Of a stretch of DNA of 64,000 nt, positions 95-5,422 are shown piece by piece. The notes below the pieces were generated by a model, which saw only the letters and a list, made by a program, of their open reading frames with translations, had not been told where the DNA came from and searched no databases. How positions within the stretch are numbered: the stretch's first letter is position 1; every line of letters starts with the position of its first letter. The position numbers and the translations under genes are program-made. The DNA comes from Chitinophaga pinensis DSM 2588 (GTDB taxonomy: Bacteria > Bacteroidota > Bacteroidia > Chitinophagales > Chitinophagaceae): contig NC_013132.1 of assembly GCF_000024005.1 (NCBI RefSeq), forward strand, positions 6,938,001 to 7,002,000. Direction: 5' to 3'.

Positions 95-541
95 AGACCG
101 ATCAAGTCCACGGCTAAGCCGTCGCTTCTTTTGCGCTTGTTCGTCTGAAAGCCCTCCTGAGGCTTATCCATGCACCCGGGGAACAGTATATGCGTATTGA
201 AAACCAATATTATTGTCCTGTTCCGCCTGTTACCCGAAATTTTTCTCAAATTACCCTGCCTAATTTTAAATAATTTCAAAACTTTGACAATTCATTTGTT
301 AATCCAAAACTAATTCCAGACTTTTGTTAGCGAAAAGTAAATTGTTTCAAATAGTGCTACCAATAGTTACATACTTCACTTCTGCTTCTCGCACCATCTC
401 CGGCGCGGGTATCAGCACTATTACAATTACATCTATTACAACCCCAGTGCGGGGTTAAATTTCACATATCATCCAACGACCACTCAGGTGGTACACCCGG
501 TAAAGGGATCTGGCATTTTTACGTATTAACATTCTTCTCAC
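69..541. other. long divergent intergenic region upstream of thrA
   Basis: About 470 bases without an ordinary gene. The left part holds small inverted repeats (ACGGC-TAA-GCCGT near 110-122 and AAGCC/GGCTT near 150-173). The right part holds the candidate threonine leader described separately. No tRNA or other structured RNA was recognised, and no convincing rightward promoter was found. Confidence 0.6.
354..458 (+). promoter_or_regulatory. candidate thr operon leader peptide and attenuator
   Basis: A 34-codon frame from GTG 354 to TAA 456-458, ending 83 bases before thrA, contains the run T-I-T-I-T-S-I-T-T (codons at 417-443) and further Thr and Ile codons upstream. A hairpin with stem AACCCC/GGGGTT (440-445/451-456) overlaps the leader stop, and GCACT (416-420) can instead pair with AGTGC (446-450). 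Downstream lie another hairpin, ACCAC-TCAG-GTGGT (479-492), and a T run (516-520). In enteric bacteria Thr/Ile-rich leader peptides control thrABC by attenuation. Here the lack of an ATG and of a clear terminator stem next to the T run leaves the mechanism open. Confidence 0.5.
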
Positions 542-3172: not shown

Positions 3173-4108
3173 ATGGATAATGAAAGCATAAGAGTATTTG
3201 CCCCAGCCACTGTCGCCAATGTGGCCTGCGGTTTTGACGTAATAGGACTGGCTATGGATGCGCCCGGTGATGAAATGATCATGCGTAGAAGTGACAAACC
3301 TGGTGTAACTATTACAGCGGTACACGGCGCATCACTTTCTACAGATCCTGCACAGAACGTATGTGGCGTGGCTATTCAGGCGCTGTTGCAGAAGTATGGT
3401 CAGCCGGATGTTGGTATAGAATTAGAACTCTTCAAAAATATTCCTCCGGGCAGTGGTATCGGCTCCAGTGCCGCCAGTTCTGCCGGTGCAGTAGTTGGCG
3501 CCAATCATCTGCTGGGCAATCCGTTTACACCTAAGCAACTGGTACGTTTTGCCATGGAAGGCGAAAGACTGGCCAGTGGCGCTGCACATGCTGATAACGT
3601 AGCTCCTGCTATCATGGGTGGTTTTACACTCGTGAGAAGTTATAAACCGCTAGATATTACCGGTCTCCATACACCGGCTGATCTGTGGGTTACCGTTATC
3701 CATCCGCAGATAGAAGTAAAAACTTCTGACGCCCGTGAAATTCTGAAACAAAAAGTACTGATGACCGACGCTATCCGTCAATGGGGTAACGTAGGTGCAC
3801 TCGTTGCGGGTCTTTACCAGGAAAACTATGATCTGATCAGCCGTTCACTGGAAGATGCGATTGTAGAACCAGTACGTGCGATACTGATACCTGCATTCTA
3901 CGAACTGAAAGTAAAATGTAAGGAAGCAGGCGCATTGGGTGGTGGTATCTCCGGCTCTGGTCCATCTGTATTCATGTTGAGCAGAGGCGAAGAAGCTGCC
4001 CGCAAAGTAGCGGCTATGATGGACACAGTATATGCTCCGCTGGGCGTGGATTACAAGATCCATGTGTCGCAGATAAACAGGGAAGGTGTGAAAATTACAA
4101 AAGCATAA
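3173..4108 (+). CDS. thrB: homoserine kinase
   Basis: Phosphorylates homoserine to O-phosphohomoserine with ATP, the step before threonine synthase. It is a GHMP-family kinase: the phosphate-binding loop PPGSGIGSSAASSAG lies at residues 91-105, and a C-terminal Gly-rich segment GGGISGSGPSVF is present. The length of 311 residues is normal. The ATG lies directly behind the right arm of the repeat element. The thrC start follows its stop by 6 bases, so the two genes are surely cotranscribed. Confidence 0.96.
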   Translation: MDNESIRVFAPATVANVACGFDVIGLAMDAPGDEMIMRRSDKPGVTITAVHGASLSTDPAQNVCGVAIQALLQKYGQPDVGIELELFKNIPPGSGIGSSAASSAGAVVGANHLLGNPFTPKQLVRFAMEGERLASGAAHADNVAPAIMGGFTLVRSYKPLDITGLHTPADLWVTVIHPQIEVKTSDAREILKQKVLMTDAIRQWGNVGALVAGLYQENYDLISRSLEDAIVEPVRAILIPAFYELKVKCKEAGALGGGISGSGPSVFMLSRGEEAARKVAAMMDTVYAPLGVDYKIHVSQINREGVKITKA

Positions 4109-4114
4109 AGTCTA

Positions 4115-5422
4115 ATGAAATATTTCAGTCTACAGAATAAACAACACGTTGTATCTTTTGAAGAAGCCGTAGTACAGGGTCTCGCACCCGATAAAGGATT
4201 ATACTTCCCCGAGCGTATTCCGGCTTTTGAGCAAGCATTCCTCAATGATATCGTTCATAAAAACGACCTCGATATTGCTTACGCAGCGATACAGCCATTT
4301 GTAGGAGAAGAAATTCCCGAAGCTACATTAAGGCAGATCATTGCGGATACGCTTAGTTTTCCTTTCCCGGTGGAGAAAGTAGAAGGGAATGTATATTCCC
4401 TGGAACTCTTCCATGGTCCTACCCTGGCATTTAAGGACGTCGGCGCACGCTTTATGGCGGGTTGCCTGGGTTATTTCAGAAGAAATGATAGCCGTCCGGT
4501 AACTGTACTCGTAGCTACTTCCGGTGATACCGGCGGTGCTGTTGCCAACGGTTTCTATAATGTGCCCGGCGTACGTGTAGTGATCCTTTACCCTTCCGGC
4601 AAAGTGAGCACCTTACAGGAAAAACAGCTGACCACACTCAATGGCAACATTACAGCGCTTGAAATAGACGGTACTTTTGATGATTGTCAGCGGATGGTGA
4701 AAACGGCTTTTCTGGATGAAGCTTTGCAGTCACACGTAATGCTGACCAGCGCTAACTCTATCAACGTCGCACGCTGGCTGCCGCAGATGTTCTATTATCT
4801 GCTGGCATACAAACAGCTTAGCGCTGCCTATCCTGATATCGTATTCTCTGTACCAAGCGGCAACTTTGGTAATATCTGTGCAGGCATGATGGCGGCAGCG
4901 ATGGGGCTTCCGGTAAAACATTTCGTGGCCAGTACCAATGTGAATGATACGGTGCCAAGATTCATGCAGACAGGCGCGTATACGCCAGGTAAAGCGACAG
5001 CTACACTGTCTAATGCGATGGACGTGGCTGATCCGAGCAACTTTGTACGTATCCTTGAATTATTTGCGAATAGTTTGCCGGCTCTGAAAGAGAAACTGAC
5101 ATCTATTTCCTTCAACGATAAAGATACCGCGGCTACGATGGAACAGGTCTGGAAAGACTACCAGTATATGCTGGATCCTCATGGCGCGGTAGGCTATCTC
5201 GGCCTGAAACAGTATTTGCAGACGACTGGTCCGGATACAAAAACTGCCGGTGTATTTCTGGAGACAGCGCATCCGGTTAAATTCGCAGATACTGCTCCGG
5301 CGTCTCTGCAGGATAAGATCGTAACGCCTGACAGGGTACAGTCCCTGTATGACCTGGAGAAACAATCCATACAACTCCCGGCTGAGTATAATGCATTAAA
5401 ACAATGGCTCATGGCCAATTGA
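4115..5422 (+). CDS. thrC: threonine synthase
   Basis: Converts O-phosphohomoserine to threonine using pyridoxal phosphate. The PLP lysine is in FHGPTLAFKDVG (Lys107), and the phosphate-binding segment ATSGDTGGAVANGF starts near residue 134. The length of 435 residues is typical for the shorter bacterial type. It is the last gene of thrABC, 6 bases after thrB, and is followed by a strong hairpin terminator. Confidence 0.97.
   Translation: MKYFSLQNKQHVVSFEEAVVQGLAPDKGLYFPERIPAFEQAFLNDIVHKNDLDIAYAAIQPFVGEEIPEATLRQIIADTLSFPFPVEKVEGNVYSLELFHGPTLAFKDVGARFMAGCLGYFRRNDSRPVTVLVATSGDTGGAVANGFYNVPGVRVVILYPSGKVSTLQEKQLTTLNGNITALEIDGTFDDCQRMVKTAFLDEALQSHVMLTSANSINVARWLPQMFYYLLAYKQLSAAYPDIVFSVPSGNFGNICAGMMAAAMGLPVKHFVASTNVNDTVPRFMQTGAYTPGKATATLSNAMDVADPSNFVRILELFANSLPALKEKLTSISFNDKDTAATMEQVWKDYQYMLDPHGAVGYLGLKQYLQTTGPDTKTAGVFLETAHPVKFADTAPASLQDKIVTPDRVQSLYDLEKQSIQLPAEYNALKQWLMAN

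Follow-up and report, generated by a model that had tools for sequence, protein, structure and literature searches.

How might a Chitinophaga cell read its supply of threonine and isoleucine ahead of its threonine operon, and by what means is that reading passed on to the genes? The question is raised by the first few hundred nucleotides of a 64,000-nucleotide stretch of DNA from Chitinophaga pinensis DSM 2588 (contig NC_013132.1, positions 6,938,001 to 7,002,000 of the forward strand; hereafter the window, with positions counted from its first letter). The window opens just 5′ of thrABC, i.e., thrA, encoding bifunctional aspartate kinase/homoserine dehydrogenase I (542–2989, + strand; NF006959, 1038 bits against a cut-off of 726), thrB, encoding homoserine kinase (3173–4108, + strand) and thrC, encoding threonine synthase (4115–5422, + strand), all three of which exceed their NCBIfam cut-offs. 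Attenuation is taught as the combination of a leader peptide and a terminator. Here the sensing half appears to have been kept and the terminator half replaced with a conserved element that is almost confined to thrA, and this in a phylum that is noted for its lack of Shine–Dalgarno sequences.

A threonine and isoleucine leader upstream of thrABC

The leader open reading frame (ORF; 354–458, + strand), recognised from the sequence and by comparison, has 34 codons and reads from a GTG start to GGT and the stop codon TAA (456–458). Its final 15 codons, ISTITITSITTPVRG, include nine for Thr or Ile. A preliminary description of this DNA had pointed to a run of Thr and Ile codons ahead of thrA, in a frame with GTG or TTG starts only, and to a hairpin overlapping the leader stop; all of this holds, the run being richer than shuffles, the GTG at 354 being conserved in place and the hairpin being formed by AACCCC (440–445) and GGGGTT (451–456). 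The end of the run had been put at about 100 bases before thrA; the true distance from the leader stop to the thrA ATG (542) is 83 nt.

Upstream of the leader lies a predicted promoter (295–326, + strand), in which TTTG (295–298) would serve as the −33 element, paired across a 20-nt spacer with the −7 box GACTTTTG (319–326). The −7 box has one mismatch to TAnnTTTG, the −7 consensus for flavobacteria in the part of PMC9723704 that deals with it. As the box is upstream of the leader, transcription of thrABC should begin near 333 (expected at 332–334) and not 3′ of 440, a location that the preliminary description had named as weighing against its proposal. A one-mismatch −7 box is present at most 60 nt 5′ of the leader in all 40 Chitinophaga-type loci, at 19–52 nt from the leader start codon, compared with 1/40 for a control stretch inside the leader. 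For the 108 other leaders, a perfect box was found in 31 and one with a single mismatch in 59 (control: 0 and 28, respectively), at widely scattered distances from the start.

The relatives compared comprised 80 thrA loci from genomes of named species, 30 loci from the family together with 20 more for family rows lacking a locus (the remainder being left out), and a class sample of 28 new thrA loci and 60 further upstream regions; of 110 class places, 30 had loci, 60 more were taken in and 20 were left out. The named-species (80) and family (30) loci gave 103 distinct thrA upstream regions, nine of which were dropped as having no clear Thr/Ile leader (five from Blattabacterium, three metagenome loci and one from Hymenobacter). 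The 40 distinct Chitinophaga-type loci include two titled with other names and exclude the C. pinensis genome itself. In the class and late-added loci a leader was accepted if it had at least seven Thr/Ile in its last 18 codons and a stop 40–260 nt from thrA; L170, which is without a recognisable thrA start, was counted as having no leader in the class tally. The five Blattabacterium loci (L038, L039, L043, L044 and L046) belong to reduced endosymbiont genomes that retain thrA with no recognisable Thr/Ile leader. One locus, L018, duplicates another, L017: these are two copies of thrA with identical upstream regions on one Chitinophaga vietnamensis contig, about 22 kb apart and in opposite orientation, and the pair is either a duplication or an assembly artefact.

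A Thr/Ile-rich ORF ending 79–124 nt 5′ of thrA has been kept in 94 of the 103 distinct upstream regions. In all 40 Chitinophaga-type loci the leader starts with GTG at the same place, within ATAGTG in 38, and the leader is also found in other Chitinophagales and in Solitalea, with ATG, GTG or TTG starts. Outside Chitinophaga a rule was used to assign the starts (ATG preferred to GTG and GTG to TTG, at 22–41 codons from the stop), giving 62 ATG, 32 GTG and 14 TTG in 108 leaders, some of which may be wrong; eight leaders received no start, and for L035 the GTG was chosen by hand. Thus, the conservation that the preliminary description had proposed to look for upstream of thrA is present, beyond the genus and tied to this gene.

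The manner in which the run has been conserved is informative. In Chitinophaga-type runs, the first codon position is A with a frequency of 0.71, the second is C or T with a frequency of 0.83 and the third is mixed, and all four Thr codons occur in the combined leader set. Thr and Ile make up 0.73 of 12 codons near the leader end in the Chitinophaga-type loci and 0.69 in the others. The frame from the start codon to the stop hairpin is preserved in 39/40 Chitinophaga-type loci despite lengths of 31–42 codons, the exception (L026) having a changed or shifted hairpin loop with the stop codon inside it. Periodicity, mixed Thr codons and frame-keeping together are the pattern expected where Thr and Ile codons are translated and under selection. 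A low-complexity spacer can resemble a leader by chance, and the run in the window is indeed short and rich in A, C and T; however, the nine Thr/Ile among its best 12 codons were equalled in none of 2000 dinucleotide shuffles of 242–541 (and in 2 of 3000 stretches of 300 nt drawn at random from the window), while 86 of 116 other leaders had a count that none of their 60 shuffles reached. With the codon-position pattern, the frame-keeping and the conservation across families also against it, chance is barely credible as an explanation.

The element around the leader stop codon

A conserved structure is built around the stop codon of the leader. Hairpin P1 (440–456, + strand; AACCCC and GGGGTT enclosing an AGTGC loop) is followed, 7 nt further 3′, by the conserved sequence C2, ACATATCATCC (464–474, + strand), identified by comparison, and then by hairpin P2 (479–492, + strand), in which ACCAC and GTGGT enclose TCAG. 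The general order is P1, about 9 nt and ACATAT, to which NRTCC and P2 are added in Chitinophaga. P1 is nearly invariant in 39 Chitinophaga-type sequences, with 95.7% of cells paired and zero compensatory changes. In 37 other leaders its arms change from CAACCC/GGGTTG to CAATCCGC/GCGGATTG in six, i.e., one pair changes from C-G to U-A, which is one covarying pair and perhaps few events. The pair count of P1 in these 37 leaders is not above shuffles (362/500 reach it); its cells and its covariation score were each reached by none of 500 shuffles, although one slid control has nearly the same score (0.092 against 0.094). P2 covaries in the 39 Chitinophaga-type sequences, with changes on both sides in three of its five pairs and 12 cells changed on both sides, a number as high as which was seen in none of 500 shuffles. 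Taken as a whole, the leader RNA is somewhat more stably folded than its shuffles (z −2.0). In another family (f35; L167, L169, L180, L188 and L191) the arms upstream of thrA appear by eye to be reversed, with GGG on the 5′ side and CCC on the 3′ side (ACGGG, GTAA, CCCGT); the stop codon is still in the loop, so that the sequence of P1 has been replaced and its shape kept.

The distance from P1 to ATAT is 8–10 nt in 29/40 Chitinophaga-type loci, where ten others gave an earlier AATAT-like match, and 7–11 nt in 67 of 89 other leaders, six of the 89 being without a match. The stop codon itself has a different place: it is 9–10 nt from ATAT in 28/40 Chitinophaga-type loci versus 18–20 nt in 55 of the 89 others. 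Because the spacing has been kept while the stop has shifted, P1 and the motif can be regarded as a unit that is independent of the exact position of the stop. A second copy of ACATAT is found 15–18 nt into the leader. In the window this is C1 (369–374, + strand; ACATAY by comparison), 15 nt past the first base of the GTG start. The pattern [AC]ATA[TC] occurs at +11 to +27 of the leader in 40/40 Chitinophaga-type loci and in 68 of 87 other stop-hairpin leaders, compared with 1–9 of 87 for neighbouring intervals and 3/9 for the leaders of f60, another family of Bacteroidia. Its offset in the 40 Chitinophaga-type loci is 16 in 30, 18 in nine and 12 in one, so that it is read in different frames in different subgroups, which implies that the nucleotides and not the peptide are kept.

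These properties could also be those of a site for a ligand or for an RNA-binding protein acting in trans, composed of P1, C2 and P2, to which the leader peptide would be secondary. The strong conservation of single-stranded ACATAT in two direct copies and the varying frame of C1 are what such a site would give, and RRM-type RNA-binding proteins are known from Bacteroidota (RbpB, in part of PMC11697453). Against this, of all the features the Thr/Ile run has lasted best, being found also in leaders without the stop hairpin, and no match to any Rfam family was obtained at E up to 5; we regard such a site as very unlikely to be the primary explanation. A specific link to RbpB was set aside, as no ACATAT-like motif is given for it in that part of the source (PMC11697453). 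Mimicry of tRNA by P1 and pairing between C1 and C2 were each considered by eye and dropped.

A further pairing, P0, was suggested by a single-sequence fold and by RNAalifold of 39 Chitinophaga-type leaders. In it, AATAGTGCT (350–358, + strand), which covers the start codon of the leader, may be paired to AGCACTATT (414–422, + strand) in the first Thr–Ile codons. Its pair probability by RNAalifold is 0.60–0.72, and within the genus it reaches p < 0.05 in 26/40 loci (p 0.012 for a compensated variant in L035, p 0.064 for the helix of the window). In cross-species permutations it was matched in 0/1000 for 79 other stop-hairpin leaders and in 494/1000 for leaders without a stop hairpin. After removal of near-duplicates (58 of the 79 left) the value was z 2.1 (42/2000), with z 2.6–2.8 for controls offset by +9 and +12, and codon shuffles of the 58 leaders gave a Fisher p of 0.41, i.e., no support outside the genus. 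P0, which could have coupled stalling to initiation on the leader, was given up as a general lock on the leader start after the de-duplication, offset controls and codon shuffles; possibly, it is a feature of the genus.

The element is found almost only at thrA. A covariance model built from 39 Chitinophaga-type loci (R1) gave one strong match in each of 36/36 Chitinophaga genomes (E 3.5e-14 or better, the next best matches starting at E 0.003), its position at thrA being checked for the C. pinensis genome, while in 23 other genomes of the order no match fell below E 0.018. The second model, R2, was built from 37 other loci. Searched with the stricter filters of Infernal, it matched 68 of 117 family genomes, with a single match per genome at E up to 0.1; the 49 unmatched genomes pool those with and those without thrA. 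Directly upstream of thrA, on its strand and 12–198 nt away, are 65 of the 68 R2 matches; one other is 5′ of a partial thrA match, and two are on contigs without a thrA match. For both models some of the genomes searched were also sources of the model, and their matches are so by construction. R2 did not match the C. pinensis genome, so that the two halves of this leader class are joined by anatomy and not by one model. A pattern search of the C. pinensis genome found the Chitinophaga element once, at thrA. Upstream of its ilvD, no leader was recognised by eye, and its his and trp leaders are of the terminator type; the idea of a general amino-acid attenuator module was abandoned. Rfam families match neither the window nor, at E up to 5, the region 250–560, nor three relatives (L050, L091 and L121) at E up to 0.5; thus, no known riboswitch aptamer or T-box family was matched in any of these.

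Output without a strong terminator

A defining feature of a canonical attenuator is an intrinsic terminator between the leader and the first gene, and no strong one was found here. The best candidate, P3 (497–520, + strand), is a weak hairpin of CCGG (497–500) and CTGG (510–513) with a run of T at 516–520, at best a poor terminator, and a terminator scan of 240–560 called none. The 40 Chitinophaga-type leaders have a median hairpin/T score of 5.9; for the other stop-hairpin leaders, of which 81 were scored, it is 3.5. As positive controls, 13 terminator-type thr leaders of f60 have a median of 26.4, and the his and trp leaders of C. pinensis itself score 30.2 and 30.8. The preliminary description had noted that a classical terminator was not obvious and that the mechanism may differ, and both scoring and scan bear this out. 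Among 88 class loci the stop hairpin was found in 20, a terminator in 14, both in none and neither in ten, 44 having no Thr/Ile leader; in the nearer set of 112 leaders, the stop hairpin is present in 99 (four of these scoring as terminator-bearing), and 13 have neither. This near-exclusion, together with the low scores, implies that the stop-hairpin element stands in for the terminator.

The second defining feature, an antiterminator pairing that competes with P1, was not found either. The 3′ arm of P1, GGGGTTAA, has a longest downstream complement averaging 4.28 nt in the 40 Chitinophaga-type loci versus 4.36 nt in shuffles; in the window the complement is 5 nt, which 38% of shuffles reach. 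No conserved competing helix was found in the consensus folds. Pairing of this arm with ACCC (495–498), considered as an antiterminator, is not conserved and was rejected. The earlier suggestion that the hairpin can be replaced by an alternative pairing is therefore not supported, since the complement is no better than that of shuffles. Of the enteric logic that the preliminary description had seen mirrored here, the conserved Thr/Ile leader tied to thrA stands, and the strong terminator and the pairing that competes with P1 do not. Thus, the leader is attenuator-like at its sensing end and is without the two canonical features at its output.

Ordinary attenuation with a degenerate terminator, in which P3 and its T-run would terminate weakly and the strands of P1 and P2 would act as the antiterminator, has some points in its favour: a hairpin 3′ of P1 scores in 31/40 Chitinophaga-type loci, T-rich stretches follow in some (L028 and L030), and the hairpin/T score exceeds 95% of shuffles in 33% of the 40 loci (21% of the 81 other stop-hairpin leaders), so that a weak hairpin P3 may exist. 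However, the medians are about 4–8 times below those of the f60 thr and own his/trp terminators, no terminator is called at 240–560, and the downstream partner of the P1 3′ arm is no better than in shuffles, which leaves this a rather unlikely explanation. Control might instead be exerted on translation of thrA, with leader translation, P2/P3 or re-initiation setting access to its start and transcription being left unterminated. This would fit the absence of a strong terminator. Bacteria have been proposed to re-initiate from leader to gene, with distances of 11–14 nt forming a peak in Bacteroidetes (part of PMC4833913), and in one Chitinophaga subgroup the thrA start can pair with a CGTAT located about 20 nt before it; but the distance from the leader stop to thrA (79–124 nt in the 94 retained loci) is far from that peak, and no pairing of the leader with the thrA start is common to the five groups folded. 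We consider translational control improbable. The subgroup in question (L014–L025, L032, L034, L041 and L045), one of the five folded, has a pair probability of about 0.7 for CGTAT with the thrA start (ATATG).

The best explanation of the whole, to which we give slightly better than even credence, is a leader on which the ribosome senses Thr/Ile, with an output that is non-canonical. That the codon run would make a translating ribosome responsive to how much charged tRNA-Thr and tRNA-Ile is available is strongly supported by the sequence comparisons. The same comparisons support regarding P1 and the unpaired ACATAT-NRTCC strand that follows it at about 9 nt, together with P2 in Chitinophaga, as one putative read-out element linked to thrA. 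The output is probably polymerase pausing or factor-dependent (Rho) termination. The position of the ribosome on the leader would decide whether P1 forms around the stop codon; the P1–C2–P2 element, which would replace the intrinsic terminator that the C. pinensis his and trp leaders have, would act on the elongating polymerase, leading to termination by a factor such as Rho or to release into thrA. By the logic of known leaders, a ribosome short of Thr or Ile would stall before P1 and thrABC would be expressed, whereas with Thr and Ile plentiful it would reach the stop and expression would fall. This mechanism is weakest with regard to the sign of the switch and to the termination step: P1 would be expected whether the ribosome stalls early or is released, so that P1 alone leaves the sign unexplained.

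Perhaps the element acts through pausing specifically. C1 is so placed that a polymerase paused there would just have exposed the start codon of the leader, and the spacing from P1 to C2 resembles the distance from pause hairpin to pause site in enteric leaders; the candidate pause site does not agree with the E. coli pause consensus. In this more specific form, P1 would stabilise a programmed polymerase pause at C2, C1 would cause a pause as the start codon emerges, and melting of P1 by the ribosome would set the choice between release and factor-dependent termination, making the leader a second, independent attenuator design. This is a tentative proposal and on the whole doubtful. Were it true, ACATAT would be a pause or factor-binding signal of Bacteroidota and the unit an exchangeable substitute for a terminator.

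Relation to known leaders

A near counterpart is the enteric thrL (RF00506, Thr_leader), which likewise has a run of Thr and Ile codons in a short ORF near the 5′ end, ahead of the same operon, and also a distance of about 80 nt from leader stop to thrA. The Chitinophaga leader differs in its GTG start, its P1–ACATAT–P2 element and its lack of a strong intrinsic terminator, and RF00506 has no match in the window, nor in 250–560 at E up to 5. One f60 leader, L149, resembles RF00506 at E 0.012, below the gathering score; this likeness is weak, since a trp leader locus, L114, also resembles RF00506 at E 0.054. The Rho-dependent leader-peptide systems of tnaC and Salmonella speF are alike in that a ribosome on the leader ORF controls downstream transcription without a terminator of the enteric type. 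They respond to free Trp or to arginine, and any part of Rho in the Chitinophaga leader is conjectural. The Bacteroid-trp RNA motif (RF01692), linked to trp by its name, belongs to a different operon and has no match in the window or in 250–560. It is a Bacteroidetes cis-regulatory candidate according to part of PMC2864571.

Strong clues for leader-peptide attenuation are given for amino-acid operons of F. psychrophilum in part of PMC9723704, and leader-like short ORFs are given for B. thetaiotaomicron in part of PMC7366714. The precedent of F. psychrophilum means that attenuation in this phylum, as the preliminary description had suggested it, is not new as such; of that suggestion the Thr/Ile leader is upheld and a switch of the enteric type is unsupported. 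No earlier description of the Chitinophaga thr leader was found in the open-licence literature. Lopatovskaya et al. (2010), reportedly a survey of attenuation in bacteria, to judge by its title, may include Bacteroidetes thr leaders.

The f60 thr leaders have the Thr/Ile run before the same thrA, but have a terminator in 13/14 and the stop hairpin in none; in several of them a GGAGGA strand at the end of the ORF appears by eye to face CCTTCCTCC in the terminator. The his and trp leaders of the C. pinensis genome (L112 and L114) also have runs of amino-acid codons (MSINVHTHHHHHSY and MKTVITNKHWWWH, respectively) ahead of their operons, but differ in having strong terminators. These canonical leaders thus serve as built-in controls, so that how a stalled ribosome is read out can be directly tested in a culturable Chitinophaga. 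In L112, 5′ of hisG, the classical his leader peptide MSINVHTHHHHHSYRAGRLG is followed by its stop codon and the strong terminator GGGGCTTACCAAATGGTAAGCCCCTTTTTTG. L114, 5′ of trpE, has the classical trp leader peptide MKTVITNKHWWWHNIRS, also ending at a stop codon, with a strong terminator, and weakly resembles the Rfam Trp_leader (E 0.03, below the gathering score).
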